In this document: piece by piece, positions 18,491 to 33,600 of the stretch
Numbering within the stretch: position 1 is the stretch's first letter
Layout of the letters: every line of letters starts with the position of its first letter
IMG/VR virus record: IMGVR_UViG_3300037189_033833
Span: 1-50,676 of that record
DNA: 50,676 bases
Origin: a virus
Direction: 5' to 3' (one strand)
The notes under the pieces: generated by a model
What the model was told of the DNA's origin: nothing
The model's database searches: none
The model's input: the letters and a program-made list of their open reading frames with translations, nothing else
Position numbers and translations under genes: made by a program

Positions 18491-18568
18491 ACCCACGGTC
18501 CTAAATGCTTGATCCACATTCGTAGCGCAAGTCCTCCCTCGCCAAAGGGAGGATGACGCGCGTCCGCA

Positions 18569-18586: not shown

Positions 18587-18657
18587 CCCCGCCCTGGACA
18601 ATGCCGCCGCCGGCGCGAACCCTTCGGCCGTTTCGCGACCCGCCTGCCATCTCTTGC

Positions 18658-18687: not shown

Positions 18688-18698
18688 AAGGAGGCCCT

Positions 18699-19507: not shown

Positions 19508-19530
19508 CGGACGGCGCCAGATGGGGAGTG

Positions 19531-19580
19531 CGGCAATGCCGTATTTCATCATTGACATTGCTACGGCAATGCCGTATTTG
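19531..19580 (+). promoter_or_regulatory. Toxin-antitoxin promoter with duplicated operator
   Basis: Two identical 16-base copies, CGGCAATGCCGTATTT at 19531-19546 and 19564-19579, each with the palindrome CGGCAATGCCG. A -35-like TTGACA (19552-19557) is followed after 17 bases by TATTTG (19575-19580), so the second operator overlaps the -10. The toxin ATG at 19586 is close to the expected start of transcription, so its message may be leaderless. Confidence 0.6.
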
Positions 19581-19585
19581 GCGCC

Positions 19586-19924: not shown

Positions 19925-20217
19925 TGGCTCGCAAGGCATTCGACATGATGATGGACGGCATCGCCGATGCCATCGCCTATGTTGAGGGTGACGAAAGCAA
20001 GGCGCGCGTCGCGAAGCCGATCGACGCCAAGGCCGTGCGCGTGGCCACCAAGAAGACGCAGGCCGAATTTGCGCAAACCTATCACCTCCCCATTGGGACA
20101 GTGCGGGATTGGGAGCAGAAACGGCGCTATCCTGATGCGCCCGCGCGCGCCTTCCTGGCGATGATCGAGGCCGAACCGGAGACGGTCGAGCGGCTGATGG
20201 CGAAGGTATCCGCGTAA
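19924..20217 (+). CDS. HigA-like HTH antitoxin
   Basis: A 97-residue protein. The N-terminal part should wrap the toxin; residues 45-95 form an XRE HTH (TQAEFAQTYHLPIGTVRDWE, then DAPARAFLAMIEAEPETVER). It should bind the duplicated operator upstream of the toxin gene. Together the pair would stabilise the element in the host. It converges with the fibre-region gene ending at 20218. Confidence 0.92.
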   Translation: MARKAFDMMMDGIADAIAYVEGDESKARVAKPIDAKAVRVATKKTQAEFAQTYHLPIGTVRDWEQKRRYPDAPARAFLAMIEAEPETVERLMAKVSA

Positions 20218-20469
20218 TTACCCCATCGTAAGGGGACGCCGCCGCCGCCGTTGATCGGAAGCGTCCGCAGGCCCCTCCACGACATACACGCTGGCGCGGG
20301 TAATCGTGACCCGCGCAGAGGCACCCTCGACGACGTAGAGCGCGCCGCGGGAGGCAAAGCATCGCGCCGCCGCGCCCTCGACCGCGTACAGGCTGGCGCG
20401 CGAGACGTTCGCACCGCCAGCGCTCCCCTCAACCGCATAGAGGCTCGCGTGGCTCACTTCGGCCGTCAT
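20218..20469 (-). CDS. Small protein with four SRASLYAVEG-type repeats
   Basis: An 83-residue protein built from four near-repeats of about 17 residues: SHASLYAVEG, SRASLYAVEG, SRGALYVVEG and TRASVYVVEG. The end is Arg-rich. The regular beta-like pattern suggests a small structural or fibre-tip part. Last gene of the leftward tail cluster of the inner element, coupled by TGATG to the gene before it. Confidence 0.7.
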   Translation of the reverse strand: MTAEVSHASLYAVEGSAGGANVSRASLYAVEGAAARCFASRGALYVVEGASARVTITRASVYVVEGPADASDQRRRRRPLTMG

Positions 20470-21437
20470 CAGGCCAGCGCCTCGAAACCAAATTCGCCGT
20501 TGGCGTGATCGATCGCGCGCCAGGCGCCCCCGGTCACAGGATCCCCGTCGAAAATGGTAAGCGAGCCGGCAAACCCCGGCCCGATTCGCGCGGCATAGCC
20601 ACCCCGATAGAGCTTCCCGTCGACGCGCAGCAGCGCGCGGACGTTCTGCGGCGCGTCCCCATCGTCGTTGCGAAGGCGCGCGCCGATGGCAACGGCCTTC
20701 ACGATGTTGCCCGCTGGCGTGGCGGACAGCGCAGGCCCTGTGTACGTCGCCATCTGGCCTACGTCCGTCGCGCCGATCGTGGTGGTATCGTCAAGTGCAG
20801 CCTTGCCGATCGCGGCGACATCCCCGGACCAGTCCGCCGCCGCGCCCGCCGCGGTGGGGCGGCGGACGCGGACGGTATGGCCGATCGTCCCATAGCTGGC
20901 GGCGATGACATCGCGGATCGTCTGGCCGTCATATCCCGATGCCCCGCGGAAACGCAGGCGTCCGACGTTGCCGATACCCGACGTGTCGATGCCCTTCAGG
21001 TCGAGCAGCAGTCCTCCGTTCCAGAAAAGCGCGATTCGCCCCTCGCTCCCATCGACAACGATCAGCGCGTCGAGTGCCCCGGAATTGAGCGCCGGAAAGT
21101 CGCCCGCGGTTCGCCATGCCCCGTCGGGGCCGCGAAAGCGGAACGTCATGCCGCGGTTCGCATTGCCCTCCGCCTGCACCGCATCCGCCCCGGCAGCCGT
21201 CATCCAGGTGATCGGGAACCGGCCGCGGTCATAGGTGCCGTAGGCCGGGGCGAGCGCGACATGCGTCCACAGCCGCTTCAGCGATGCCCCGGCGCCGGTT
21301 GCCGGGTCGATCAGTACCGCGTCGGCATAGGCCGCAGCGCTGGTCCCGATCTCCACCGCGGCGTCGCCGGCCGCGCGCGGCTGCGTCGGGGACAATTCAT
21401 AGGCGTCGACGCCGCCCGCCGCGAAATATGTCGGCAT
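20469..21437 (-). CDS. Tail fibre-region protein (inner element)
   Basis: A 322-residue mostly beta protein (MPTYFAAGGVDAYELSPTQP) with Gly/Asp-rich loops and a section that reads like a concanavalin-type sandwich (GRIALFWNGGLLLDLKGID). It sits downstream of the tape measure in the place of fibre or tip genes. No enzymatic motif seen. TGATG overlaps on both sides mark one operon with 20218-20469 and 21437-21925. Its role in host recognition is inferred from position and composition. Confidence 0.6.
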   Translation of the reverse strand: MPTYFAAGGVDAYELSPTQPRAAGDAAVEIGTSAAAYADAVLIDPATGAGASLKRLWTHVALAPAYGTYDRGRFPITWMTAAGADAVQAEGNANRGMTFRFRGPDGAWRTAGDFPALNSGALDALIVVDGSEGRIALFWNGGLLLDLKGIDTSGIGNVGRLRFRGASGYDGQTIRDVIAASYGTIGHTVRVRRPTAAGAAADWSGDVAAIGKAALDDTTTIGATDVGQMATYTGPALSATPAGNIVKAVAIGARLRNDDGDAPQNVRALLRVDGKLYRGGYAARIGPGFAGSLTIFDGDPVTGGAWRAIDHANGEFGFEALA

Positions 21438-21925
21438 CAGATGGCCACCCCGGAAATTGTGAAGCGTAGGCGCGCGATGGTCGGGTCAACGACTTCCGGC
21501 GCGATGACGGTGACGATATCTCCGACCGCGATCGAGTACCGGCGGTCGAAGGAATTGACGAACAGACTCGTCCCATCACTTCCGATGGTCAGCGCCCCGA
21601 TCGCCTGCCCGTTGACCGACAATTCCGCCGACCAGAACGTCGACGGCGGTGTGCCGACGCTGGCGACGCAACCCGCGAAGTCCGCCGCCAGGACGTGCGG
21701 CGCCGCCGCGACATGATCGAGGAGAATTTCCTTCGACGCGACATCCCCCACGGCGAAACCGCCGAAGCGATAGAAGCCAGTGATGGTGTCGGGGGCAGGA
21801 TCGATCCCCCGCAGGATCGTTGCAACCGGGATCGCGATTTGTCGGCCATCCTGGAAGGCGGCAAGGAGCTCTCCCCCATCAAGTGGGCGCGATGGGCCGG
21901 GATAGGCCGCAATAGTCGAGAACAT
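21437..21925 (-). CDS. Tail fibre-region protein (inner element)
   Basis: A 162-residue beta-rich protein, MFSTIAAYPGPSRPLDGGEL, from the ATG at 21923-21925 with GGAG six bases ahead. The frame is open upstream but that part is not protein-like and overlaps the promoter side of the rightward gene at 22032. Segments such as TFWSAELSVNGQAIGALTIG suggest a carbohydrate-binding or structural fold. No family could be assigned. Confidence 0.6.
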   Translation of the reverse strand: MFSTIAAYPGPSRPLDGGELLAAFQDGRQIAIPVATILRGIDPAPDTITGFYRFGGFAVGDVASKEILLDHVAAAPHVLAADFAGCVASVGTPPSTFWSAELSVNGQAIGALTIGSDGTSLFVNSFDRRYSIAVGDIVTVIAPEVVDPTIARLRFTISGVAI

Positions 21926-22031
21926 ATTCACTCCGGCGGTAATTTCCGCGCGAACCGTTATTGCGCCGCGCGGCGTTGGCGTTGAGAATATCGGCGCGTT
22001 GCGCGTTGATGCGCAGAACAGGAGACGGTCG

Positions 22032-22358
22032 ATGCTGAAGACATTTGGTTTGCTGATCGCGCTTGGCGGAGTTTCGATAGCGGCCACGATGCCGGCGACG
22101 GCCTCGCTCTACCCGTCGTACATCCGCAAACATTACCCCAAGTCGATCCAGCCACTGCTGCTGCGGGAAAATGCTTTGGACGATCAATGCAGCGGCGCGT
22201 CTGGCGACCTGCCCTCCACCCAGCGAGCCTGCCGGCAGCGCGACGGAGTCGTAAGGCAGCTGAAGGCGAAGGGGTGGTGCTGGGGATCGAAAGACCCAGA
22301 CGCTATTGGGGCAGACATGACATGGCTGCTGTGCCGGGATGATCGGTCGGGCGGATAA
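22032..22358 (+). CDS. Small exported Cys-containing protein (moron-like cargo)
   Basis: A 108-residue protein from the ATG at 22032, preceded by AGGAG. A signal peptide is clear: Lys3, a hydrophobic core (FGLLIALGGVSIAATM), then PATASL. The mature part has four cysteines in the pattern C-x(13)-C, then GWCWG and a final WLLC. This resembles a common family of small periplasmic proteins without known role. It reads against the surrounding tail genes, as lysogenic conversion or superinfection-exclusion genes often do. Function unknown. Confidence 0.7.
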   Translation: MLKTFGLLIALGGVSIAATMPATASLYPSYIRKHYPKSIQPLLLRENALDDQCSGASGDLPSTQRACRQRDGVVRQLKAKGWCWGSKDPDAIGADMTWLLCRDDRSGG

Positions 22359-22363
22359 GCCGA

Positions 22364-24010
22364 CTAGCGGCTGTTACTGAATGCGTGGCTGATCGCGCCG
22401 CCGGCTCTTGCAGTCGCCTTCACGCCAGCGGGCGCGTTTTTGAACTCGATCTCGAGCAAAATGCGCTCCGCGATGTTCGCACGATCGGCGCTATCTCGGT
22501 CCTTTTCTTTGGGTCGCTCGTAATATCGGGTGATGGCTTCGGCCTTATCACCGGTCCCTTGTGCTTGCGAAATCAGCCGCGCGGCCTTCTTCTCAGTGTG
22601 ACCCAGCTCCCATTTGCGGAACCGCTGCTGATCCTCATACGACGAACCGTATATGCTTTTCCCCATCGCCTTCTGGAAGTCGATGCGGCGATCGTTCTTT
22701 TTATCGTAGGCACCCCATTGAAAGAGACCGTACCCTGGCCCCTTCGGTTGCTGTCGGTGCGGATCATTGTTGCTCTCGGCTTCGCCGACCGCAGCCCAAG
22801 CGGCAGCTTCGTCGGCTGGCATGCCTTCCGAACGATACCTGAGATAATGCTTACTCGCGGCGCGCGCCAAGCTATCGACCTTCTTCGGGCTAAACCGCCC
22901 ACCGCGGCGCCACCCCTTGGTGTAGCCGGAGGGCGGCGCTGACACTCCACCGCTCTCCACGCCGCCGCCTGCGGGGGCGGGCGATGCCTCCGAACCGCTG
23001 GCGCCGCCGCCCTTGGTCAGCGCCTCGTATCCCGCAATGGCGCCATCGCCGACCGTCTTGACCGCCGTCGCATTCGCGCGCTGCACGGCATTCAGGCCCT
23101 TTCCCGCCCACTGCATCGCCTTCGTGTCGCGCCGGGTGATATCGCGCCCGAGCTTCACGTCGTCGTCGGTGATGACGGTGCCGTTCTCGCCGTAATCCTT
23201 CATGTCCGCCGACAGCGCGGCACCCCCTTGGGTGAAGGCGGCGAGCGCGCCATCCGATATGCCCAGGGCGCGGCCGGCCGTCCGTTGCCCGGACGAGTTT
23301 TGCCGAGAGATGGCATTGGCGATCGAGGGGATCATGGCCTCCACGTCGACGGTGCCGTCGTCTTTCGTCTTCATGGCGACGCCCATCTTGGACAGGATCG
23401 CCAGCGCCCCGGAGTTGCGGCCGTACCTCGCATCGTTGAGCGTCTGCGACAGACCGGCCATGGACCCCATCGCCGTATTCTTGTCGACTCCGACCCGCTC
23501 AGCAGCCCCCGCGAACTCCTGTAGGCCCTTTGTGCTGACGCCCATGAGGGATGCCATGTTGCCGAGCTGGTTCGCACCCTTGCCCCACGAGTCTGCCAGC
23601 TTCACCATACCGGCCGCCAGGCCGACGACGGCCGCGCCGGCCGTCAGCGCCGCGCCGCCGATCCCGACGATACCAGCCTCCAGGGCGCCCGCACCGACTG
23701 CGGCCTCGCCCATCGATCCGCCGGCGAGGGTCGCCATGTTGCGGATCGCGCCTAGGCGGCTGATGACGCCGGAACCGTTGCTACCCAGGGGGCCGGCGAA
23801 GGCGCGTTCGGTCGCGCGCTCCACCTCGCCGAACGTGCGCGTGATGCCACGCCCCCAACGCGATATGCCGCGCTGGGTCGCCCCCATGCCCCGGTCAGCG
23901 CCCTTCGCCATTTTTTTGGTCGCGCCGTCAAAGCGACGTTCCGCTTTGGCGATGCCCTTCGCCGTCTTGTCGTTGGCGACGATATCGATGCCGACGCGAG
24001 GTGCGTTCAT
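22364..24010 (-). CDS. Tail tape measure protein with phage lysozyme domain (inner element)
   Basis: A 548-residue homologue of the helper tape measure (1-1662). Both share SLSQTLNDARYGRN, AIxRQNSSG and many other blocks through residue 320. From about 365 to 505 this copy has a Phage_lysozyme2-type domain (AAVGEAESNNDPHRQ, then GPGYGLFQWG) with Glu410/Glu412 as likely catalytic acids, instead of GH73. The last 20 residues (ISHAFSNSR end) again match the helper. Similar N-terminal length means a similar tail length would be specified. Confidence 0.87.
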   Translation of the reverse strand: MNAPRVGIDIVANDKTAKGIAKAERRFDGATKKMAKGADRGMGATQRGISRWGRGITRTFGEVERATERAFAGPLGSNGSGVISRLGAIRNMATLAGGSMGEAAVGAGALEAGIVGIGGAALTAGAAVVGLAAGMVKLADSWGKGANQLGNMASLMGVSTKGLQEFAGAAERVGVDKNTAMGSMAGLSQTLNDARYGRNSGALAILSKMGVAMKTKDDGTVDVEAMIPSIANAISRQNSSGQRTAGRALGISDGALAAFTQGGAALSADMKDYGENGTVITDDDVKLGRDITRRDTKAMQWAGKGLNAVQRANATAVKTVGDGAIAGYEALTKGGGASGSEASPAPAGGGVESGGVSAPPSGYTKGWRRGGRFSPKKVDSLARAASKHYLRYRSEGMPADEAAAWAAVGEAESNNDPHRQQPKGPGYGLFQWGAYDKKNDRRIDFQKAMGKSIYGSSYEDQQRFRKWELGHTEKKAARLISQAQGTGDKAEAITRYYERPKEKDRDSADRANIAERILLEIEFKNAPAGVKATARAGGAISHAFSNSR

Positions 24011-24090
24011 GCTGCATTCCTTAAGGGAGACCTGCGCCGACGTCGCGGCGAGGGTAGGCCGGCGGGACGATTACCGCCGGCCGGGATCGA

Positions 24091-24252
24091 TCAGGCGTCA
24101 GCCTGCGGAGCGAACTCGAGGCCGGCCCACTGGCACCAGCGCCAGAGGTCCGACCACCGGCGCGCGGCGATCACGTCGGGCGCCTGCCCGTAGCGCATCG
24201 CCAGCGCGTCGATCAGCGGTCCCCAGCCGGCAGGCCGGGCACGAGAAAATTT
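24091..24252 (-). CDS. Minus-one frame extension of the tail assembly chaperone (inner element)
   Basis: After a -1 slip at 24246-24252, translation continues as SRARPAGWGPLIDALAMRYG and on through a Trp-rich stretch (RRWSDLWRWCQWAGLEF) to the stop at 24091-24093. The helper extension (1659-1814) has the same GW-x-x-x-x-DALAxRYG pattern, so the frame is conserved although it has no start. The extension is about 53 residues, giving a fusion of about 230 residues. Confidence 0.82.
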   Translation of the reverse strand, partial: KFSRARPAGWGPLIDALAMRYGQAPDVIAARRWSDLWRWCQWAGLEFAPQADA

Positions 24253-24779
24253 GCCAGATAGCTCCCCGCCGCCACCAGGTCCCGCGCCCCCAGCTTGTGG
24301 AGCGCCACCTCCGGCACACCGGATACCGCGCCGATAATTTTCAGATCGGCGAGGATCCCGTCCGCCTTATCCCACTCGATCAGCTGGTTCGCCGTCGGCT
24401 CATGGAGCGCGATCTGACGATAGGTCGTCTCGCCGTGCTCGATCGGATACCGCAAGTCGATGACGAGCTCGGCGGGTACGTCCTGCGGCTGATCGACGCT
24501 GACTAGGCCGAACGCGTTGACGAACTCCGCTGCGGCGATGATGTCGCGGGCGACGAGCTGGCCAATGACGCTGACCGGTCGGCCCGATACGACCGACACT
24601 GCAACGATGTTTGCTTCGATGCCGGACAGGTGCGCCCATCGCAACATTTCGCCCGCGCGAGGCTCCCGCAGATCAAGGGTCGCGACCGACTCGTCGAGGA
24701 AGGGGACGGGCTTGCGCAGGGTAAGGGTCCGGGTGTCCGGCATGATATCAGCCATGGCGGGGGTATCGGTATCGTTCAT
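24213..24779 (-). CDS. Tail assembly chaperone with duplicated domain (inner element)
   Basis: A 188-residue protein. It contains two copies of the roughly 75-residue Mu gp41-like chaperone domain: residues 18-90 (LREPRAGEMLRWAHLSGIEA) and residues 105-180 (LHEPTANQLIEWDKADGILA). The helper protein has one. The start ATG 24777-24779 is taken because the open frame beyond it is Arg/Ser-rich and not protein-like. The heptamer AAATTTT near the end permits a -1 extension. It lies directly before the tape measure gene. Confidence 0.82.
   Translation of the reverse strand: MNDTDTPAMADIMPDTRTLTLRKPVPFLDESVATLDLREPRAGEMLRWAHLSGIEANIVAVSVVSGRPVSVIGQLVARDIIAAAEFVNAFGLVSVDQPQDVPAELVIDLRYPIEHGETTYRQIALHEPTANQLIEWDKADGILADLKIIGAVSGVPEVALHKLGARDLVAAGSYLANFLVPGLPAGDR
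24246..24252 (-). promoter_or_regulatory. Programmed -1 ribosomal frameshift site AAATTTT
   Basis: Minus-strand zero-frame codons are GCA AAT TTT CTC, so A AAT TTT fits X XXY YYZ. The zero frame ends at 24213 while the -1 frame is open to 24091. Confidence 0.78.
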
Positions 24780-24874
24780 CTGTCGTCTCCAGGAGGGCGC
24801 GGGGTAGCGCGTTGACGGCCGCCAGAAGGCGGCGGTTATCGTGATCGGAAGGCGTGACCCGGTGGGGCGGCGCG

Positions 24875-25297
24875 TCAGGCGGTGAGGAAGTCGCGGATCG
24901 TGGCGAGCGTCGCCGCACGGACGCCGGCGTCCTGGCGGACGAACAGGCCATCCCCGTCGTTGAGCGCGGTGACGGGGCGAAGGCCCCAGCCAGCACCGTT
25001 CGCCGGCAGCGCGAAGGCTGATGCCGTTCCCGTGGTGATCCAGGCGATCAGCTGGTCGACCGTCGCAATGCCGCAGCCGCCGGTTGCGCCGCTCATGACG
25101 CGCAGCTGCTCCGTGCCGCTGATCGCGGTGACGGCCGGTTGACCGACCGGCGGATTGGGCGCGCCCGCGCCGATCGGTTGGCCGCGGACGATCTGGCGCA
25201 GCTGCGCGAGCGTCACCGTGCCACCGCGTCCGGCGACGTTGAGCGGAATGCCTTCGCTCCCGTCGAGCGGAAATGCGGGGGGTGAGAATGCGACCAT
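24875..25297 (-). CDS. Virion-region protein of unknown function (inner element)
   Basis: A 140-residue protein, MVAFSPPAFPLDGSEGIPLN, with TLAQLRQIVRGQP in the middle and a GDGLFVRQDAGVRAATLATI ending. Such repeats of 'value, default, iterate' pattern occur in tail or collar proteins of alphaproteobacterial phages, but no family can be named. Lies upstream of the chaperone gene, where the helper has tube and sheath genes instead. Confidence 0.6.
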   Translation of the reverse strand: MVAFSPPAFPLDGSEGIPLNVAGRGGTVTLAQLRQIVRGQPIGAGAPNPPVGQPAVTAISGTEQLRVMSGATGGCGIATVDQLIAWITTGTASAFALPANGAGWGLRPVTALNDGDGLFVRQDAGVRAATLATIRDFLTA

Positions 25298-25377
25298 GAG
25301 GTGTCCTTTCGTGCGGTCGAGGATGAGAGGGGAGGCGCGGGCTTGGCCGCAGCGCGCCGATGGCGCAGGCTGCGCGC

Positions 25378-26085
25378 ATGACGATCGAAGTGACCAAGAT
25401 GATTGAGCCGGCGAAGGCCGTGCTTGCCCCCGCTGGGAACACATTGAGCGAGGCGTGGGCCGGCGTGATCGGTGATCGCGTCGCCGCGTGGCGCCTGAAG
25501 AACGCCGCCGCGTTACAGGTAAAAGTGAACGAGGAATGCGCGGCGTTGGGGCTGAAGGTCGACCGCGCCAAGATCCCCGAACGCTATGCGATCGCGTGGT
25601 TCGAGGAAGCGACGAAACAGGACGAGCCGGAGATACAGACGCTATTCGCACGCCTGCTAGCGCGGGCCACAGCGGGGGATGACGATGCCGGCGACCGCCG
25701 CCTACTGGCGATCGTCAGCCAACTGACGCCGATTGATGCGAAGGTGCTGGAGTGGCTGTTCAAAAGGGTAGGGCACCCCACTGCGTTTCCGCAGATCGAA
25801 GAATTCGTGGCTTGGCGTGAGGTCAAAGACGAGTTTGGCGAACGCGCGCTCATCTCACTCGACCAATTCGTCGTGCTTGGAATATTCGAACGGCAGTATT
25901 CATTGCGCAACGACGCCGGCCTATCGTCATGGCATTCGGTAGAGTCCGGGATGTCGATCAGTCGCCTAGCGGAAGACATCACGGGCAATATGACGGTCAC
26001 GCCCGATCTGTCCGCAACGCCTTTGGGATTGGCGCTGTATAAGGCCTGCCTTTCTGGCAACCCCCAGGAAGTCACCGGGGGGTGA
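25378..26085 (+). CDS. Abi-alpha-like (DUF4393) abortive infection protein
   Basis: A 235-residue protein. It shows the DUF4393/Abi-alpha pattern: N-terminal region with AGNTLSEAWAGVIGDRVAAW, then KIPERYAIAWFEEATKQDEP, the conserved LFARLLARAT and QLTPIDAKVLEWLFKR. Family members are linked with phage abortive infection in lactococci. It is a lone rightward gene between two leftward genes, as cargo defence genes usually are. The start ATG 25378 is preceded by no strong ribosome site; an in-frame start six codons upstream is possible. Family call is from remembered pattern. Confidence 0.68.
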   Translation: MTIEVTKMIEPAKAVLAPAGNTLSEAWAGVIGDRVAAWRLKNAAALQVKVNEECAALGLKVDRAKIPERYAIAWFEEATKQDEPEIQTLFARLLARATAGDDDAGDRRLLAIVSQLTPIDAKVLEWLFKRVGHPTAFPQIEEFVAWREVKDEFGERALISLDQFVVLGIFERQYSLRNDAGLSSWHSVESGMSISRLAEDITGNMTVTPDLSATPLGLALYKACLSGNPQEVTGG

Positions 26086-26659
26086 GGCGAGGGTCCGTCA
26101 AGTCTTGCTCGAAAATCTCCAGCGAGGCGAGACGAGCGCGGACGTGCCGGTGTAGGACCGCTTGCACCGCGTCCACCCGACCGGGGATCCCCAGGTCAGC
26201 CGCGACGGCCGCCGCGATGCCCCCCGGCCACCGGTCCCACCCCGCGTCCTTACACGCCTCGTCCCAGGCGGCGTGATCCGCAGCGTCTAGGGCTTCCACC
26301 CGATCGGCTTCGTCGCCGCTCTCGATCCACGTCCGCAGTTGCGTCGACATAGTGTTGGGGTTGCCGAGCCGATGCCAGCCCGCCCAGGGGGACGGCGCCG
26401 GCAGCACCTCAACGGGCTTGCCGGCGACATACCCCATGCCAGGCCGATCGATCAGGCCGCGGACGCCCTCAGTACGCCTTCCACCGTGCGCCTTTACCCG
26501 GAAACGGCCCTTGCCGGCCGCCTGCATCTTGGCGTCCGACGCCGCCGCATCGACCTGATCGCCTTGCATGACGAGGTATCCACGGTCCTGCCATTTCTTC
26601 GCGGCCTGACGGCTGGCGCTGTGGGTGGCCGCATAGGCGGTCAGGGACATGAGGGTCAT
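26072..26659 (-). CDS. Small-terminase-like cos-binding protein with divergent C-terminus
   Basis: A 195-residue protein. Residues 1-60 match the helper small terminase (MTLMSLTAYAATHSASRQA against MTLLSITAYAETHGMKRQA, and AAGKGRFR against KAGLGRFK), i.e. the winged HTH. The rest, with LPAPSPWAGWHRLGNP and a helical end, shows no similarity to the helper. It lies next to the cos-like block and repeats, as the helper small subunit does. It may direct the helper large terminase to this element or compete for it. The 3' end overlaps the Abi-like gene by 14 bases. Confidence 0.75.
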   Translation of the reverse strand: MTLMSLTAYAATHSASRQAAKKWQDRGYLVMQGDQVDAAASDAKMQAAGKGRFRVKAHGGRRTEGVRGLIDRPGMGYVAGKPVEVLPAPSPWAGWHRLGNPNTMSTQLRTWIESGDEADRVEALDAADHAAWDEACKDAGWDRWPGGIAAAVAADLGIPGRVDAVQAVLHRHVRARLASLEIFEQDLTDPRLTPR

Positions 26660-26680
26660 CAAACGCTCCGGTGTTAAATG

Positions 26681-27011
26681 GTTGCAGGTCATGGTTGCCC
26701 CCCCGCAACCAAGCGATGGTTGCGGGGGCAACCGGGTTCGGTTGCGGGGGCAACCAAGATGCGGTTGCGGGGGTGCGGTTACGGGGTGTGGCCGCGCCGT
26801 CCCGATCGGGCAGACGCCCCGGATTTCTGCGGCGACAGACGCAACAAGCCCCGCAACAGGCCCCCGCAACAAGCGGCGTTTGTTGCCCGCAACAGACGCA
26901 ACAGGTTGCGGGGTTTGTTGCGGGGGGTGCCGCAACCAAGATTTCGCAGATTTCTGCGGGCTAGAGGCCCCTCACCCACCCCGCAACCCCGCAACAGGTT
27001 GCCCCCGCAAC
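26681..27011. repeat. Array of GTTGC/GCAAC repeats upstream of the small-terminase-like gene
   Basis: The gene-free stretch 26660-27249 begins with 21 copies of GTTGC or its complement in about 330 bases, mostly followed by runs of G (GTTGCGGGG type) and often in back-to-back pairs. The helper has the same pentamers next to and inside its small terminase gene (nine in about 330 bases). They are candidate binding sites (cosB-like) for the HTH domain shared by both small subunits. Confidence 0.65.
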
Positions 27012-27012
27012 C

Positions 27013-27089
27013 AACTTTTTGATTTCGTAGCTGGGGTTACGTCGGGGTGCGCAATTACCCCCGTTGCAGAAGGGGGTCGGAAGGACCCA
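27013..27089 (-). other. Second cos-like block (inner element)
   Basis: 64 of 77 bases equal 13303-13379, without gaps. The 22 bases at 27042-27063 and the 12 at 27065-27076 are identical to the helper. The order block, GTTGC array, small-terminase-like gene is the same as in the helper. It is probably where the helper terminase starts packaging the excised element. The remaining gap to 27249 holds two palindromes and no gene. Confidence 0.65.
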
Positions 27090-27174
27090 AAAGACCCCCC
27101 GGGGGGTATAGGCGACGGGATCGGCAGGCACGCCGGGCGGCCGTCGCCCCCTGTCCCCCGTGACGGGCACTTTC

Positions 27175-27208
27175 GTCCCTAGGGACAGCGCCGTTCGTCC
27201 CTAGGGAC
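27175..27208. promoter_or_regulatory. Two copies of palindrome GTCCCTAGGGAC
   Basis: Perfect 12-base palindromes at 27175-27186 and 27197-27208, 22 bases apart centre to centre (two helical turns), each within a longer TTCGTCCCTAGGGACAGCGC copy. Likely a paired operator, just downstream of the gene ending at 27250. Confidence 0.55.
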
Positions 27209-27249
27209 AGCGCGCGAAGGCGCGGCGCCATGGGGCTGCTGCGATGCCG

Positions 27250-27963
27250 CTAACGTTTCGGCTTCATCGCCAGGCTCGCACGGAAGCCCGCCAGGATGCC
27301 AAATAGGTCGGCGGTGCGCGGTGACGGGTAGAGCTTCACGTCGTAGTGTATCGAGCCGTTCTTCGGCGTACCGATCGCGAGCACGCTGTCGTGCGTCACG
27401 CTGCGTCGCGGACCGGAATAGACGGGTTCGTTGGCGTACAGGCGGCGCGCCTGATTGAGCGCGTCAAGTGGCCCCATGACCGCGCCATAAAAGTCGCCCC
27501 ATCGCGCCTCCAGCTCGATCGTCATCGCGTCGCGGGCGACGTTGACGAAGCCTTCCCATGCGATCTCATGCAGCCGCTTGGCCTCTGCCAGGGCCTCCCG
27601 GCGCGCGGTCAGGTGATCGGATACGCTCGACAGCGCCTGCGCGATGATCGTCCGCTTGCCCCTCCACGCCGACAGGGCGGCGGCGGTGGCATCCTGCGCT
27701 TCGCGCAACCGCCCTTCCCAATCCGCTGACGCCGCCGCCGTCGGGTTGTCGGCGAGCAGCTGCGCCAACTCGGCGGTGACGTCAGGATCCTGCGCAGGCT
27801 CGATCGCAGCGTGCTCGGCCTGCGCAGCACGCAAATCGCGTTCGCGCTTGGCGGCGTCGTTCACATCGGCCTGCGCGGCCTGCACGGCAGCGGCGGCGGC
27901 GTCCACGTCCGCACTGAGGCGGACGACGCGAGCCAGAGTTTCGGGGTTCGAGATAGGCGGCAA
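27250..27963 (-). CDS. Coiled-coil protein, paralogue of the one at 31222-31923
   Basis: A 237-residue protein with an Ala/Asp/Gln-rich coiled coil in residues 5-130 and the block AWEGFVNVARDAMTIELEAR near 145. The protein at 31222-31923 has AWEAFVRGAYDGLAAELLTR in the same place, so the two are paralogues. I choose the TTG at 27961-27963 because AAGGAG lies six bases ahead; a GTG at 27982-27984 is in frame but precedes that site. Function unknown. It is the last gene before the cos-like region. Confidence 0.65.
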   Translation of the reverse strand: MPPISNPETLARVVRLSADVDAAAAAVQAAQADVNDAAKRERDLRAAQAEHAAIEPAQDPDVTAELAQLLADNPTAAASADWEGRLREAQDATAAALSAWRGKRTIIAQALSSVSDHLTARREALAEAKRLHEIAWEGFVNVARDAMTIELEARWGDFYGAVMGPLDALNQARRLYANEPVYSGPRRSVTHDSVLAIGTPKNGSIHYDVKLYPSPRTADLFGILAGFRASLAMKPKR

Positions 27964-28053
27964 AGTGCATCTCCTTCGTGGCACTGGTGAAAGACGGGCT
28001 GCCGCGCGATCATCCCCGGACCGGCCAACGAGTCGGACAGGGAGGCGACAGCA

Positions 28054-28503
28054 ATGGACGAGGTTTCAGGCCACCGATTGGACGACGTGATTGCGCAAAA
28101 ACGGGTGCCGGTATTGATCCGGCGCGGCCCAGGTCTTCCGCCGCGGCTTCAGATACCGTTCGACCTCGGCAATCGGGCTTGGTTGCGAGCGACGGGCATG
28201 AACAATCCGAAATGGATCGCGCCGGATAAGCAATGGGAGGTGCCGCAATCCCGCTTTACGGAATTGGTGAACAGGTGCCTCGAAAAATTCGGGAAGGTGT
28301 GGGTGGTCCAGCCCTACAACGAACAGGAGAAGTGCGCTCCGGCATGCTGGGACGCGGAGAAGGAAGAATGCCAGTGCTCTTGCATGGGCGTGAACCACGG
28401 CTCGCGCGGTCCGGCTGGGCGCTGGAAAATCGTGTCGGACCATTTCGCCACCCGATGGCTCGGCGCCCGCATGGCGGCGAGGCTGGTCGTGAGACGGTCC
28501 TAG
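28054..28503 (+). CDS. Cys-rich protein of unknown function (possible cargo)
   Basis: A 149-residue protein with a clear GGAGG site before its ATG. Residues 90-115 hold a cysteine cluster (CAPACWDAEKEECQCSCMG) followed by NHG, a likely metal- or disulfide-bound knuckle. The N-terminal half has VPVLIRRGPGLPPRLQIPF. It reads against the neighbouring operon and overlaps the end of the gene at 28500 by four bases. I do not know the family's role; isolated orientation is compatible with defence or conversion cargo. Confidence 0.68.
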   Translation: MDEVSGHRLDDVIAQKRVPVLIRRGPGLPPRLQIPFDLGNRAWLRATGMNNPKWIAPDKQWEVPQSRFTELVNRCLEKFGKVWVVQPYNEQEKCAPACWDAEKEECQCSCMGVNHGSRGPAGRWKIVSDHFATRWLGARMAARLVVRRS

Positions 28504-29213
28504 ATCAGGCCCGCCGTCATCCCGGCGGCGCATGTCGGCGGCGCATTGGGCGCGACAGACGTCACGGTCTTAATCGGCTCCCGGTAGGGTGGCCGTGGTG
28601 GACCGTAGTACAGCGCGCGACTCACCATCGTTCCGTCGGATAGCAGCCGCATCGCTCCATCCTCGACCGCGATCCGCATCCATTTCTCCGGCACGTCACC
28701 GATCGGCCCGCCTTCGCGCACGCTCGAGAGCCAGAGCGGGAATTGCGCGTCTGTGAATCGCTTGACCTCGATCAGCGCGTCAGCCTGTTCCGACGCGGGG
28801 GGCTGGTAGCGGTTGAGGATGTCGAGGCATTGGCTGGGCGACGGAAACCATTCGAGGGTCGCGCAAGCCGTGCGGGCCATGAACGCCAAGGCGGCTTCGC
28901 TCCGATCGCCCAGCAACGCCGCGTAAACGGCAAACCGCATTTTCCCGGTCCGGTCGTCATCGCCGCGCGAGGGTAGCGCCGCGCGCATGAAGTCGAGATG
29001 CCGGGCCAACTGGTCGCGCGTCGCCGGCGTCGCGGCACCGCCGGCCGTGGACAAGGCCCATTCGCGCAGCTGGTCAGCCTCGGCCATCGTCGTCGGCGTT
29101 CCCACCGGCCTGCACCTCACGGAGGGCGGCGACGAAGCCATCGAGGGGCCGTCCTCTATCACGCGCAGCGCCCGCGCCGCCGCCGCGCCGATCCCCGAAG
29201 GTCCGTTGTCCAT
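28500..29213 (-). CDS. Replication-region protein, unknown function (inner element)
   Basis: A 237-residue protein from the ATG at 29211-29213, which has GGGAGG ahead. The core ATRDQLARHLDFMRAALPSR and LEWFPSPSQCLDILNRYQPP is helical. Placed directly after the O-like gene, as helicase loaders are, but no Walker motif is visible, so a loader role is only a guess. Its start overlaps the O-like gene by 140 bases, which is unusual; an ATG at 29086-29088 or so (MAEADQLREW) may be the real start. Confidence 0.6.
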   Translation of the reverse strand: MDNGPSGIGAAAARALRVIEDGPSMASSPPSVRCRPVGTPTTMAEADQLREWALSTAGGAATPATRDQLARHLDFMRAALPSRGDDDRTGKMRFAVYAALLGDRSEAALAFMARTACATLEWFPSPSQCLDILNRYQPPASEQADALIEVKRFTDAQFPLWLSSVREGGPIGDVPEKWMRIAVEDGAMRLLSDGTMVSRALYYGPPRPPYREPIKTVTSVAPNAPPTCAAGMTAGLI

Positions 29214-29823
29214 GCTCGCCTCCCGTGATGCTCGATTGCCGGCGGCTGCGGCGGACCCAATTGCGCCAGGTCGCCAGCCAATCGGCCTTCCGGCCCGCCG
29301 CGCCCGGCTGCGCGACCCAATAGTCGCGGAACACGTCCGCCTCCGCGCTGGCATCCGCGGCGGTCCATCCGCGCTCTGCCGTCGCCCACGCAGTCCATTC
29401 GGCCGGCGGGGTGAAGTCCGACGCGAGCCGCGATCCTGATGCCGCCGCCGGCCGCGTCTTCGCGCGCACGGACTTATCTCTATTACTGACGGTTCTTGGT
29501 GTATTGGGGGGCAGCGTGTCCGGGGTTTGGGTATTCTCTGTCCGGGGGGACAGCGTGTCCGGGGGGACAGCGTGTCCGGGGTGAACGGTATAGAGAATGC
29601 CGCGACCGGGCTTTCGAATTGTGCTGATGCAGCCGCCCGCCTCCAATCGCGCCATGACACGCCGCGCAGTGCGTACATCGACGCCGGTTTTCTCGGCTAT
29701 CGTCGGCATCGATGGCCAGCACTGCCCGCTCTCATTCGCCCAGTCGGCAAGTGCGACCAGGACGAGGCGGTCGATAGGCGGAACCCCCGATGCCCACGCC
29801 TCGGCGATGAGGCGGAAACTCAT
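29074..29823 (-). CDS. Replication initiator-like protein with N-terminal winged helix (O-like)
   Basis: A 249-residue protein. Residues 1-75 are a winged HTH (LVALADWANESGQCWPSMPT, then GVDVRTARRVMARLEAGGC). The middle is a Pro/Thr-rich linker encoded by DNA repeats that resemble origin iterons. Residues 155-195 show the usual phage O-type end, FRDYWVAQPGAAGRKADWLA then TWRNWVRRSRR. In lambda the origin lies inside gene O; the same layout seems present here. The last 50 residues are Gly/Arg-rich and overlap the next gene. Confidence 0.75.
   Translation of the reverse strand: MSFRLIAEAWASGVPPIDRLVLVALADWANESGQCWPSMPTIAEKTGVDVRTARRVMARLEAGGCISTIRKPGRGILYTVHPGHAVPPDTLSPRTENTQTPDTLPPNTPRTVSNRDKSVRAKTRPAAASGSRLASDFTPPAEWTAWATAERGWTAADASAEADVFRDYWVAQPGAAGRKADWLATWRNWVRRSRRQSSITGGEHGQRTFGDRRGGGAGAARDRGRPLDGFVAALREVQAGGNADDDGRG
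29509..29577. repeat. Candidate replication origin iterons inside the O-like gene
   Basis: Three copies of GACAGCGTGTCCGGGG or its close form: one starting at 29511 (one base different), and two at 29548 and 29565 spaced 17 bases apart, plus a half copy near 29539. Each contains the palindrome GGACA-GCG-TGTCC. Position in the linker of the initiator gene matches lambdoid origins. Confidence 0.6.
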
Positions 29824-30149
29824 TATGCATCGCCGATGCGGGGGTGAAGCTCCGTAAAGGCCCCGCGCCCCCGGCTGTGAAATCGCGTCAGGTGTCCGTC
29901 GCGTTCCAGCTCCCGGATACCGCGCTGGACGGCCCGGAGGCTGTACCCCGATTCGTGAGATATTGCCGCCACGGAGCTGCGGACCGCGCCACGCTCATCG
30001 ACGTCGAGCGCAAGGACCATGAGGACCAGCTTTGCGACAGGTCCGCACCGCACGCGGGTGCATCGTTCGAACAGATCGATCACCGCCGGACTGCGATCAT
30101 GGCTTGGCGTTGAGACTGACCGGTCTTTACCGGCGCATGCGTCAAGCAT
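29823..30149 (-). CDS. Winged helix-turn-helix protein
   Basis: A 108-residue protein with a winged HTH: AKLVLMVLALDVDERGAVRS, SVAAISHESGYSLRAVQRGI and RELERDGHLTRFHSRGRGAF. Similar to the initiator's N-terminal domain, it may act in replication or its control. TAATG overlap with the O-like gene and an eight-base overlap with the gene before it. The internal ATG-less start at residue 24 (VIDLFERC) is not needed. Confidence 0.7.
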   Translation of the reverse strand: MLDACAGKDRSVSTPSHDRSPAVIDLFERCTRVRCGPVAKLVLMVLALDVDERGAVRSSVAAISHESGYSLRAVQRGIRELERDGHLTRFHSRGRGAFTELHPRIGDA

Positions 30150-30612
30150 GCCCCTGTCCCGATCGAACGGCGAGCAACAGGCGATCGACGTGGGCGACCG
30201 TCAGCGTCAGGTGCGCCGGGACGGTGATGCCGCGCAGGCCCGCCACGTCGAAGCCTTGGCGGTCCACGAAGACCGCCGTTGGCCGGCCGTGTTCCTCATG
30301 CCAGCGCGCGACGGCGGCGGCCCGGTCGGGGTTCGCCCAATCCGTCCGCCAGTCGGATGCGAATGCTGCGCGGACGCCGTCCGAGAGCAGCTGATCGCGT
30401 GCGTCGTAGGGATCGGTACTGGCGGTGCATACCAGGACCGCCCCCAGCTTGTCGCACAGGTGAGTAACGGCAGCGACAGGGGGATGCCTCAACACGACGG
30501 CGCCGCCGGTTGGAGCGCCAGCAGGCGGCACAAGCCCTACCGTCGTCACTCTCGATGCGGCGGTGACGATCACGGGATTGAGGAAGACGACTGGAGGATG
30601 CTGTGACGGCAT
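30142..30612 (-). CDS. Hypothetical protein, possibly HAD-like
   Basis: A 156-residue protein starting MPSQHPPVVFLNPVIVTAAS. The second half, LGAVLVCTASTDPYDARDQL and RPTAVFVDRQGFDVAGLRGI, has the alternating pattern of a small Rossmann-like fold and loosely recalls HAD-type domains, but no catalytic DxD is seen. Function unknown. Confidence 0.6.
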   Translation of the reverse strand: MPSQHPPVVFLNPVIVTAASRVTTVGLVPPAGAPTGGAVVLRHPPVAAVTHLCDKLGAVLVCTASTDPYDARDQLLSDGVRAAFASDWRTDWANPDRAAAVARWHEEHGRPTAVFVDRQGFDVAGLRGITVPAHLTLTVAHVDRLLLAVRSGQGHA

Positions 30613-30686
30613 AGGACGGTCCTTGTTCGATGGCGGCAGGCGCTGTTGCCGGTGCGTGATGTGCGATGACCTAGGGTCGTCCAGTC

Positions 30687-31199
30687 TCAGCGGACGCCCG
30701 CGGTGGGTGCGCGCAGCGTTTGACCCGTCATCCGCGGGCCAGCCCCGGCTTTGTCGAGCATAGTCGAAACCGCATGTTCGACCGCCGCCGCCGGCGCATC
30801 CCCGTCGAACGACAGATGGTCGCCGATGCGATCCCGTTCGGCGAATGGACGGACGGTGACGGTCGTGCCACCCGGCCCGCATTGCACCTCGACCCAATCC
30901 CCCTTGGTATGTTCGACACCAGCCGGCCAGTCTGGGCCAGGTCGCGCATAGACGGCGATGACAGCGCGCTTTGGCTGCATGTCGTCGGCAAACTGAGGCT
31001 CGATCACGAGGACGACACCGGCGGACGCCAACTCGGCGGCGGCGCGCTCCAGTGCGGGCATCACCCGTTCCTGCAACTGATCGATAAACGGGCGCAGGAT
31101 GGTCAGGCCGTTGCGCCGGTCACGCTCTGCGGCGGCGGCGGTGTTGAGGTCGAGGCGGATAGCCCCGGCGCGCGCGATCAGGGCGGCGAGATAGGTCAT
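30687..31199 (-). CDS. Hypothetical protein, helical N-terminus and beta C-terminus
   Basis: A 170-residue protein. Residues 1-65 form a helix-rich segment (MTYLAALIARAGAIRLDLNT), followed by a beta-rich domain (KGDWVEVQCGPGGTTVTVRP). No family recognised. It follows the coiled-coil gene by 22 bases in the same operon. Confidence 0.6.
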   Translation of the reverse strand: MTYLAALIARAGAIRLDLNTAAAAERDRRNGLTILRPFIDQLQERVMPALERAAAELASAGVVLVIEPQFADDMQPKRAVIAVYARPGPDWPAGVEHTKGDWVEVQCGPGGTTVTVRPFAERDRIGDHLSFDGDAPAAAVEHAVSTMLDKAGAGPRMTGQTLRAPTAGVR

Positions 31200-31221
31200 A
31201 GGTATCTCCGTTTCCGGTCAA

Positions 31222-31923
31222 TCAGGAGGCGAGCGCAGCACGCAAAGCGTCGACCGCTTCGGGGTGGCGATCCCGCACGCCGCCGCCGCCGCGCTCCGCC
31301 ACCAGCAGATAAACGCGCTCGTTGCCGGGTCCGACGAGCGACAGCGAGCTCTCCGGCGCGATGCGGCGTTGCAAGCCATTGACGATGCCGCCCGGCCCGT
31401 CCGCCAGCCGCAGAAGGGAAAGCTCCTGCATAGGGGTGAGCACCTCGCGGGTCAGAACCTCCCAGCGCGTCAGCAATTCGGCGGCCAGGCCGTCATACGC
31501 CCCCCGCACGAACGCCTCCCATGCGTGCGCGCGATCGACCTGCCCCGCGGCGATGTCCGCTTCCAGCCCCGCGATCTCGCCCTCGACCGCCGTCAGGGCC
31601 TGATGGAAAGCAGCCTGTACGGCGGCGGCGGCGTGATCCTGAACCGCCGCCGCCGCACGGCTATCGCGAAGCTGCGCCGTCGTGCTCGCGTCGATTGCCG
31701 TCGCCGGATCGGCAGCGAGGCGCGCAGCCAGATCGTCGGTTGCCGCGTCGGGTGCTGTCGACACAGCGCTTTCGCCTGCGATCCGCGCCGTAAGGGCATC
31801 GCGTCGGGCGCGCGCGCCGTCGAGGCGATCCGTGAAAGTCGCCAGGGCGGTATCGAGCTTGCGTACATCGGCGTCGAGCGCGGCAATGCGCTGACGCTCC
31901 GCCGTGTTGGTGAAGGGCGTCAT
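31222..31923 (-). CDS. Coiled-coil protein, paralogue of the one at 27250-27963
   Basis: A 233-residue protein from the ATG at 31921-31923. A long coiled coil spans residues 5-150 (ALDADVRKLDTALATFTDRL and onward), followed by AWEAFVRGAYDGLAAELLTR and a C-terminal beta segment with ERVYLLVAERGGGGV. Same architecture and a matching block in the protein at 27250-27963. Function unknown; the pair brackets the replication genes. Confidence 0.65.
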   Translation of the reverse strand: MTPFTNTAERQRIAALDADVRKLDTALATFTDRLDGARARRDALTARIAGESAVSTAPDAATDDLAARLAADPATAIDASTTAQLRDSRAAAAVQDHAAAAVQAAFHQALTAVEGEIAGLEADIAAGQVDRAHAWEAFVRGAYDGLAAELLTRWEVLTREVLTPMQELSLLRLADGPGGIVNGLQRRIAPESSLSLVGPGNERVYLLVAERGGGGVRDRHPEAVDALRAALAS

Positions 31924-32089
31924 GGTGAATCCTTGTAATGGTGGGAGGCTGCCGGCGGACTGACATCGCCGGCTTGGGTCACGCCAGGCGATGGCGTGCC
32001 GGGTGGGGATGAGAAAGGCGACCAAGCCAGCGCGGTCCCCTGCCCGGTGCTATCCGCGCTTCGCTTCTCGGTAAGCGGTCACAGGCTGA

Positions 32090-32314
32090 TTACCGCGCCA
32101 GCGCCTTGCCGGCCTTGGCGAGCAGGCCAGCCCACCCATGGTCCGGCGCGGCGGCGGCGCGCTCGGCGGGCGCGGCGTTTTTCAGCGGTGCGCCGGCCTT
32201 CGCGAAGGCGCCTCCCCAGCCGTTCTTTGCGTCGGCGCGGTGAGCGGCGCCCCAATCGCGCAGGCCCGCGGTGGCCGCGGGCGTTCCGAAGTGCGAGAAA
32301 TCGTGTTTCGGCAT
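32090..32314 (-). CDS. Small FSHF-motif protein
   Basis: A 74-residue protein, MPKHDFSHFGTPAATAGLRD, with two similar segments (NGWGGAFAKAGAPLKNA and HGWAGLLAKAGKALAR). The start DFSHF recalls the FAHL motifs of the next gene upstream and of the helper protein at 7009-7632. Unknown function. Confidence 0.6.
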   Translation of the reverse strand: MPKHDFSHFGTPAATAGLRDWGAAHRADAKNGWGGAFAKAGAPLKNAAPAERAAAAPDHGWAGLLAKAGKALAR

Positions 32315-32349
32315 GTGTCGTCCTCGCTGGCGTATTGAAGCGAACCCGA

Positions 32350-32685
32350 TCACCGCGGCCAGCGACGCGGGGGCGGGATCAGGTGCGCGAACGGAGACGA
32401 TGGCGTGGGAGGTGGCGCGTCTGCATCGCCGCGAAGGTGCGCGAAAGGGCCTGACGGCGGTGGGACCGCTGCGCCGGGGCGAAGGTGTCCGAAGGTCCCG
32501 ACCGGCGGGGCGTCGCGCTTGACCAGGTGCCATACCTGCCATGGCAGGCGCCTGCGGTCCGTCCTCCGCTTCGGCTCCGGCTGCTCTGCGTTCGCAAGCA
32601 CGGGCGACGGCGCGGCGGCCGGTGCCTGCCCCTTCATTGTGCGGAACGCGGCCATGAGCATTTCGAAGGGGGAACGGCTCGCCAT
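32350..32685 (-). CDS. Small protein with three FxHL motifs
   Basis: A 111-residue Pro-rich, basic protein. GTFGHLRPG, GPFAHLRGD and SPFAHLIPP occur at about 20-residue spacing in its second half, and the start is ASRSPFEMLMAAFRTM. The helper acidic capsid-region protein begins with a SPFAHLLSG segment. The shared short motif could let this protein bind the same partner as the helper protein, but this is only a suggestion. TGATG overlap with the gene before it. Confidence 0.6.
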   Translation of the reverse strand: MASRSPFEMLMAAFRTMKGQAPAAAPSPVLANAEQPEPKRRTDRRRLPWQVWHLVKRDAPPVGTFGHLRPGAAVPPPSGPFAHLRGDADAPPPTPSSPFAHLIPPPRRWPR

Positions 32686-32942
32686 CAGGACGCGTCCGCT
32701 GCTCGGCCCGCCCGGCGGAGGACGATCATATTGCGGCCGGACAGCTCATGAAGGGCGCGGCGCGTTACGTCGACCGGTAGGCCGGACGCAGCGGCGGCGG
32801 CGGCATCCGTGCCTCCATAGACGCCGGCAGGATCGACCATGCCACGGATCGCTCGCAGGACGGTGCGGGCGTTCAACGACACATCGAACCCGCCAGGGCG
32901 CGACGCGGAGCGCGAACGCTGCGCGATCGTGCCGCGCTTCAC
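32685..32942 (-). CDS. Small helix-turn-helix-like protein
   Basis: An 85-residue protein starting with GTG at 32940-32942, overlapping the AlpA-like gene stop (GTGA). NARTVLRAIRGMVDPAGVYG, then AAAASGLPVDVTRRALHELS and MIVLRRAG give a winged-helix pattern. Likely a regulator encoded with the AlpA-like gene. Confidence 0.6.
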   Translation of the reverse strand: MKRGTIAQRSRSASRPGGFDVSLNARTVLRAIRGMVDPAGVYGGTDAAAAAASGLPVDVTRRALHELSGRNMIVLRRAGRAADAS

Positions 32943-33166
32943 TTCGCTTCCCCAGCCGATGAGCGCGCCGCCGCAGCTTCCTGGGCAGCGAAATGCTTCG
33001 CCAGCGTCGACCGCCGGGCGCAGACTGTCTTGCCCATCTTGAAGGTCGGAAGACCGCCGTTGCCGTGAAGGTGATACACCTGCTTGGCGGTCAGATTGAG
33101 ATGTTCGGCGATCGCGTTGACCCCATGAAGGAGGTCCGTTGTCGATGCGCCCTGTGCGTCGCTCAT
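32939..33166 (-). CDS. AlpA/MerR-like DNA-binding protein (single unit)
   Basis: A 75-residue protein with one HTH unit, LHGVNAIAEHLNLTAKQVYH then LHGNGGLPTFKMGKTVCARR. The same unit occurs three times in the protein at 15061-15906. It is the first gene of the leftward operon at the right end of the element, so it may be an activator of the element's genes or an excisionase. AlpA-type regulators are typical of P4-like and PICI satellites. Confidence 0.75.
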   Translation of the reverse strand: MSDAQGASTTDLLHGVNAIAEHLNLTAKQVYHLHGNGGLPTFKMGKTVCARRSTLAKHFAAQEAAAARSSAGEAK

Positions 33167-33207
33167 GCGTCACTCCATGCGTTATTGAGGTGCCGGCCGA
33201 TCTCGAA

Positions 33208-33229
33208 AAATGGCGGAAAACCGCCATTT
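33208..33229 (-). terminator. Leftward hairpin terminator or operator
   Basis: Perfect nine-base inverted repeat, AAATGGCGG and CCGCCATTT, with a four-base loop. On the minus strand it is followed by a short T run, so it may stop leftward transcripts. It also lies just upstream of the AlpA-like gene and could be its operator. Confidence 0.55.
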
Positions 33230-33262
33230 ATGCCGGCAGATGTCGGGAACACGCCTGACGTG

Positions 33263-33285
33263 AAAAAGGGGCGCCGTAGCGCCCC
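33263..33285 (-). terminator. Rho-independent terminator reading leftward
   Basis: On the minus strand the stem GGGGCGC, loop TACG, stem GCGCCCC is followed by TTTTT. It stands just inside the right end of the element, so helper transcription entering from the split gene should stop here. Confidence 0.8.
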
Positions 33286-33314
33286 TAAACTGTTGGAAAA
33301 CTGCCGTTTTCTAC

Positions 33315-33331
33315 CCTCTCAGCGTGAGAGG
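33315..33331. promoter_or_regulatory. Inverted repeat CCTCTCA/TGAGAGG beside attR
   Basis: A perfect seven-base inverted repeat with GCG between, ten bases inside the right attachment core. It shares CTCTCA with the repeated sites at 18.2-18.5 kb. It may be an arm site for recombinase or a directionality factor. Confidence 0.45.
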
Positions 33332-33600
33332 ATACACAAGTATTCGGCCTGCACGTCTTTGAATGCCACGGTCGCCACAGGCCGCGACTTGGTCGCCACT
33401 ACGATGCGCGTCGCCTTCTGCGTAAAGGGCGTCGGCGTGTCGAACGTGTCGTTGATCTCGTCCTGCTCGACTGCGGCGACGCCGCGAGCGAGGTCGTTCA
33501 GCGCCAGCGACATCGCGAACGGGACCTGCTGCGCGCCTAGCGCGATCATCGCCCGGTGCAGTGGTTTGAGGTCAGCCTTAATGCTGATCCCGACGGGCAT
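33319..33600 (-). pseudogene. 5' part of the helper gene split by the inner element
   Basis: The true gene part is 33341-33600: MPVGISIKADLKPLHRAMIA through AFKDVQAEYL. After the attR core the frame reads five element-derived codons (CILSR) and stops at 33319. Joined to 13391-13793 it continues with APYVFGGDRSLG to a 220-residue protein. The start overlaps the previous gene stop (ATGA-type). The intact product would be a minor virion or tail completion protein. In the present state only an 88-residue stub can be made unless the element excises. Confidence 0.85.
33341..33347. other. attR core TATTCGG of the inner element
   Basis: Second copy of the core at 13794-13800. To the right is helper coding sequence, to the left element DNA. 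Confidence 0.75.

Follow-up and report, generated by a model that had tools for sequence, protein, structure and literature searches.

The 50,676-nucleotide viral DNA analyzed here (the window, an IMG/VR record) contains a 77-base block at positions 27013 to 27089 that resembles a second block at 13303 to 13379, next to the terminase genes of a prophage, the helper. Since the first block lies within an element inserted in that prophage (the inner element, or satellite), the question arises whether it is a packaging site and, if so, which terminase proteins would act on it.

Two copies of a lambda-type cos

As claimed in the first-pass annotation, the two blocks align without gaps with 64 of 77 bases equal, and they share an identical run of 22 bases (TCGGGGTGCGCAATTACCCCCG), which spans the two intervals given as cosN in Table 1. 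The runner-up alignment position in the whole window reached 39 of 77. In 60 shuffles of the window that preserved dinucleotides, the best score was likewise 39 (mean, 36.5; standard deviation, 0.9), ruling out a chance similarity of the blocks. The GTTGC/GCAAC repeats said to follow both blocks were also present, and in both places the next gene belongs to the small terminase (TerS) family phrog_57. A reading of the block as an RNA element or tRNA was discarded, since the window contains no tRNA and gave no Rfam match at the gathering score.

Written on the minus strand, along which the terminase genes run, both copies read TGGGTCCYTCC, spacer, CGGGGGTAATTGCGCACCCCG, spacer, AGCTACG, spacer, and GTTGCGGGG. 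The four elements begin at positions 1, 30, 58, and 79 in the satellite and the helper copy alike, and the fourth is in both the putative first TerS-binding repeat. Using the subsite names cosQ, cosN, and cosB (PMC9026076), the AGCTACG element falls between cosN and cosB, and AGCTA is found at the corresponding place in most related cos sites. In phage lambda (NC_001416, gpNu1/gpA), the parts follow in the same order, with a cosQ of the form GGGTCC..TCC (GGGTCCTTTCC) approximately 30 nt ahead of the cut. The record of Serratia phage BZS1 begins at an annotated 12-nt cosL (GGGTCCTTCC-N21-^GCATTGCGCGCC), and its cosL region aligns with both blocks over ATTGCGC. The overhang TAATTGCGCACC is therefore predicted in the register of this annotated cosL. 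The 13 mismatches between the blocks almost wholly spare the putative functional parts of cos, with 1 in the 40 bases of cosQ, the 22-mer, and CGTAGCT versus 12 in the remaining 37. Overall, both blocks have cosQ, cosN, and TerS-binding repeats in the fixed order and spacing of a lambda-type cos, and the identification of positions 27013 to 27089 as a complete site of this type is well supported at the sequence level.

Table 1. Positions of the cos parts, genes, and insertion joints in the window
Feature	Positions	Strand	Basis or remark
Satellite cosQ, TGGGTCCTTCC	27079..27089	-	Block alignment; same element in lambda and BZS1
Satellite cosN, 22 bases, same as in helper	27042..27063	-	Predicted 12-nt overhang TAATTGCGCACC at 27046-27057 (+/-1)
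Satellite AGCTACG element, between cosN and cosB	27026..27032	-	Both copies
Satellite cosB (putative), 13 GGTTGC and 8 TGTTGC	26680..27011	-	Repeat scan
Helper cosQ, TGGGTCCCTCC	13369..13379	-	Block alignment
Helper cosN	13332..13353	-	Predicted overhang TAATTGCGCACC at 13336-13347 (+/-1)
Helper cosB (putative), nine TGTTGC, two before terS and seven in the terS linker	12980..13301	-	Repeat scan
Helper TerS, 222 aa	12595..13263	-	phrog_57
Helper TerL, gpA type, up to 740 aa	10437..12659	-	phrog_15
Inner element (satellite), 19,547 bp	13794..33347	-	Joint comparison with the uninterrupted gene of L004
Interrupted helper minor tail gene (phrog_1924), 5' part	33334..33600	-	PHROG match, L004 comparison
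Interrupted helper minor tail gene (phrog_1924), 3' part	13391..13804	-	PHROG match, L004 comparison
Satellite tyrosine integrase	13820..15061	-	PF00589; L005 has a 99% identical copy at this joint
Bro-N/KilAC antirepressor	15903..16682	-	Domain matches
Satellite tape measure protein (TMP), 548 aa, tail-lysozyme domain	22364..24010	-	Domain/family matches
Satellite tail assembly chaperone (TAC), two TAC domains in one protein	24213..24779	-	Phage_TAC_7
Abi_alpha family gene, convergent with satellite terS	25360..26085	+	PF14337
Satellite TerS, 195 aa	26072..26659	-	phrog_57 family; winged-helix DNA-binding domain, ASRQAA type
O-like replication initiation protein	29074..29823	-	Similarity
Small HTH protein, candidate excisionase/AlpA-like (weak)	32939..33166	-	phrog_18541 only; role from position

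The first-pass annotation had also suggested looking for the block in other prophages with this large terminase, and the outcome in viral contigs was in its favor. A search of viral contigs by cosQ and part of cosN alone, with gene information unused, retrieved at least 119 matching stretches. The large terminase subunit (TerL) was looked for in the 93 listed loci having at least 1.3 kb of downstream DNA, and 87 of these 93 have it next, in the same orientation, at a median distance of 737 bp. In those 87 listed loci, as in the helper, cos lies directly upstream of a Nu1-type terS and a gpA-type terL. A position away from terminase genes was thus not the rule, with 6 of the 93 listed loci lacking TerL next to the block, and a motif unrelated to packaging is ruled out by this gene-blind scan. 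The scan of genome contigs gave 3 loci, 2 followed by TerL and 1 on a stretch ending in terS.

Other arrangements were seen in a few contigs. L074 (8088 to 10301) and L091 (1 to 9103) carry cosQ-cosN and a TerS-type DNA-binding domain with no recognizable TerS C terminus, together with a P4/PICI-type primase upstream; in L091, a tape measure gene stands immediately ahead of cos. Both look like further cos satellites of a kind closer to the Rpp systems discussed below. In L069 (cos at 4681, reversed strand) and L118, cos precedes a TerS that is split across two overlapping frames, and up to 9.5 kb of sequence showed no similarity to TerL; these are possible further TerL-less cos elements. At the L083 cos locus (from 5223 onward), tail sheath genes come almost immediately after cos and the first part of terS, with TerL and head genes absent, which may reflect either a deletion derivative or an assembly artifact.

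The inner element and its helper

The joints of the inner element share a 7-bp core, TATTCGG, at 13794 to 13800 and 33341 to 33347, which gives its size. The insertion target, the phrog_1924 minor tail gene, is located just upstream of the helper cos. Contig L004 represents the empty site, with the same cos and an uninterrupted phrog_1924 gene (220 aa), and the gene is also uninterrupted beside cos in many relatives. In contig L005, which comes from another metagenome, the gene is split likewise and the integrase is 99% identical. The element is co-oriented with the helper, with the integrase and late genes both on the minus strand. No relatives of the integrase, the satellite TerS, or the TMP were found in viral contigs beyond L005, and the integrase had no match at E ≤ 1e-60 in 398 genomes of the order of Novosphingobium. 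A search of phages with the satellite TerS and one of plasmids with the satellite cos-terS DNA gave no match.

The larger open reading frames of the element were all scanned in PHROGs and/or Pfam, and none of them was recognized as a TerL, portal, or capsid gene, in agreement with the earlier claim that a large terminase is absent. The reading frames are intact. In addition to the genes listed in Table 1, the element carries a RelE-type toxin gene with its partner, a PadR-like regulator, and a fiber-like gene. Its resemblance to the helper, or to two relatives in which the region from terminase to TMP is complete, is confined to TerS, TAC, and TMP; the TAC is a tandem duplication, each half of which matches the single helper TAC. 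The search with the O-like initiator retrieved general phage relatives only, and no primase match was obtained among the scanned reading frames. The Abi_alpha gene, which may serve in defense or interference, is encoded on the opposite strand between the terS and tail genes of the satellite. Overall, the element looks like a satellite that has taken or kept a packaging address and two tail-assembly genes.

In the early region of the helper, positions 39253 to 40356 code for a DNA polymerase III beta subunit (sliding clamp) that is complete, each of its three Pfam domains being present. The region also encodes a C5-cytosine DNA methylase and an N6/N4 DNA methylase (37519 to 38925 and 40679 to 41896), and a sulfotransferase-family protein (45773 to 46372). 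The IMG/VR record starts and ends at gene boundaries, and the rest of the helper tail region therefore falls outside the window. Because the nearest cellular relatives include Novosphingobium and a genome of the same order, the host is likely a sphingomonad.

Repeat classes and the satellite TerS

The 353-bp interval between the satellite cos and terS holds 21 GTTGC/GCAAC repeats versus 0.84 per 353 bp elsewhere. All nine helper repeats are TGTTGC, and seven of them (12980 to 13080) lie within the part of terS that encodes the linker after the DNA-binding domain; related phages likewise place their own repeat class inside this linker stretch. The satellite interval combines both classes, and its repeat at the R3 position (27003 to 27011) is of the GGTTGC class. 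Just ahead of the satellite terS (26680 to 26770), the repeats form inverted GGTTGC-N4/5-GCAACC pairs, which would suit an autoregulatory operator too.

The variable base of the repeat follows the TerS recognition helix in the related phages, in a small sample of four phages versus two close relatives: an ASRQAA-type helix goes with GGTTGC and zero TGTTGC in L014, L063, L127, and the G247 phage, and an MKRQAV-type helix goes with TGTTGC in the helper and L033. The DNA-binding domain of the satellite TerS is 61 to 63% identical to the ASRQAA group versus 50% to its own helper. By these comparisons, the satellite cos is not a pure mimic of the helper site, since only cosQ, cosN, and the adjoining element are common to both and the putative cosB is mostly of the GGTTGC class. 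Nevertheless, because it includes eight TGTTGC repeats, the helper TerS may bind there as well.

The lambda TerS binds TerL through its C-terminal part (PMC9026076). The satellite TerS retains every invariant C-terminal residue in an alignment of 12 TerS sequences. Its residues 1 to 173 match the G247 phage TerS (E = 8e-21), and the part past the DNA-binding domain matches that of L127 (p ~4e-8, from shuffles); with a profile of 86 diverse TerS, the C terminus scored just above shuffled sequences (13.1 versus 12.4 bits). Given the kept C-terminal end and the matches to G247 and L127, the protein seems to be a TerS that has a distinct DNA specificity, not just a DNA-binding domain. It has both the winged-helix N-terminal domain and the C-terminal end of a Nu1-type TerS (phrog_57), and the latter should bind TerL. 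A reading of the protein as Rpp only, which came from a BLAST match of the N-terminal 54 residues only, was lowered after the C-terminal match was found. The central KENALA segment, nearly invariant in the aligned TerS, is absent from the satellite protein only, and the protein may therefore not assemble or act normally. The structure model is confident for approximately residues 1 to 54 only and moderate near the C terminus; the fold of its N-terminal domain resembles gpNu1 1j9i and 6hn7 chain B, and Foldseek with the model gave no hit at E ≤ 0.001.

Proposed packaging of the satellite and comparison with known systems

We consider it probable that the block is the cos of an embedded 19.5-kb satellite whose own TerS loads the helper TerL and directs the DNA into helper heads. 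Upon induction, the satellite would be excised by its own integrase, restoring the helper minor tail gene, and would then replicate. The satellite TerS, sitting on the GGTTGC repeats of its cosB, would recruit the helper TerL via the conserved C-terminal end, competing for it with the helper TerS. The helper TerL would nick the cosN common to both genomes, leaving the overhang TAATTGCGCACC, and would pack the satellite DNA into helper heads, with cosQ serving the terminating cut. In this scheme, we infer excision, TerL binding, TerS competition, cutting, and packaging; the cos architecture, the repeat/helix match, the C-terminal homology, the lack of an own TerL, and the empty and occupied sites are read from sequence. 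Two units of 19.55 kb amount to 39.1 kb, which fits the 38 to 43 kb of the related viral contigs L014, L063, and L127, and packaging as a dimer in full-size heads is thus possible, as a guess.

The first-pass annotation had proposed packaging by the helper terminase through a mimicked cos. Its identification of the block as cos stands, and packaging by the helper TerL appears well supported. Simple mimicry does not hold, since the satellite cosB is mostly GGTTGC and the element encodes its own matching TerS; the better reading would be that the satellite offers the shared cut site to the helper TerL under its own address label. The TGTTGC array of the satellite may in addition be bound by the helper TerS, allow mixed complexes, or act as a decoy.

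This array leads to a tentative alternative, in which the cosB is a hybrid, with GGTTGC for the satellite TerS and the TGTTGC array for the helper TerS. The helper TerL would be recruited via the satellite's own or mixed complexes, helper TerS would be soaked up to restrain helper packaging, and one repeat base with the matching helix change would be the main specificity switch. The same eight TGTTGC repeats, one of which lies near the helper second-repeat position (94 versus 95), would also suit a pure cos mimic, packaged by the helper TerS-TerL through TGTTGC and the shared cosN. The identical cosN and the central segment missing from the satellite protein, which would then be a regulator, a decoy, or a relic, are consistent with it. 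However, the repeat at the R3 position is GGTTGC and the satellite helix matches it, and a conserved C-terminal end would be needless for a relic or a mere decoy, making this explanation unlikely.

The Rpp protein of Escherichia coli PICIs has a TerS-like DNA-binding domain and goes with a changed cosB and kept cosN and cosQ (PMC6739421, PMC9026076), and RppC was the sole PDB sequence hit of the TerS profile, at a weak E of 0.38. By analogy, the satellite protein could pair with the helper TerS via its DNA-binding domain, and the mixed complex would read the hybrid cosB, where both repeat classes are mixed, with TerL arriving on the helper TerS. Rpp is reportedly without a TerL-binding domain, whereas the TerS C-terminal end is still present in the satellite protein, and we regard such pairing as improbable. 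Finally, the cos-terS-TAC-TMP order, which is that of a complete phage minus terL to tail tube, and an O-like initiator as in ordinary phages could point to a defective prophage nested in the helper, related to it and left with functionless cos and terS after loss of its head genes. Its intact reading frames, the sparing of the functional cos bases from substitution, the same insertion in a second metagenome contig, and the absence of likeness to the helper or the two relatives beyond TerS, TAC, and TMP argue against such decay, which seems very unlikely.

If the preferred reading, a satellite TerS loading the helper TerL, is true, the helper-satellite pair offers a small natural system for testing how the small subunit of a terminase recognizes a packaging site. 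As the cut site is shared and the main difference is one repeat base and the TerS helix, the question of what loads TerL is directly testable.

Enterobacteria are known to carry helper-embedded PICIs (HE-PICIs) in which a stretch of cos is shared (Tommasini, Mageeney, and Williams 2023, PMC10111431). Like them, the inner element sits in a late gene of its helper prophage and is co-oriented with it; its target is a different one, the minor tail gene beside cos. HE-PICIs follow the order integrase/AlpA, Bro, replication, and late genes, whereas here the integrase and Bro-N genes come last, beyond the late genes. The replication module has an O-like initiator in place of the PICI primase, and the doubled att motif of HE-PICIs with TGTATTGC is absent, the one copy in the window (5387) being outside the element. 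The element carries a TerS, which the HE-PICI 11capE is said to lack (PMC10111431), and probably belongs to a sphingomonad rather than an enterobacterial system. Because gene order, replication module, att motif, and TerS form differ, the element, as judged by its gene layout, is outside the HE-PICI group as described and represents a new layout of helper-embedded cos satellite. If so, helper-embedded satellites also occur beyond the enterobacteria, where they differ in layout, replication module, and target gene, a pattern suggestive of more than one origin of the embedded lifestyle.

Kept cosN and cosQ with a changed cosB and a TerS-like protein are known from EcCICFT073 (PMC6739421). The satellite shares with EcCICFT073 and its Rpp the helper-type cosQ and cosN, the different cosB, and a protein with a TerS-type DNA-binding domain (PMC6092414, PMC6739421, PMC9026076). 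In contrast to Rpp, this protein retains the TerS C-terminal end, and the putative cosB retains some helper-type repeats; the satellite is also embedded in its helper, and a PICI primase was not found in it. According to a published description, EcCICFT073 is packaged into capsids of full size, and cos sites are skipped in the process (PMC6092414). The TerS of pac-type SaPIs would work alike, as a satellite TerS directing the helper TerL to satellite DNA, although packaging there is headful (pac) and here a cos site would be used (PMC6092414). The likeness to lambda includes the Nu1-type TerS and gpA-type TerL downstream of cos; the cosN and repeat sequences differ, and the helper repeats extend here into the terS coding sequence.
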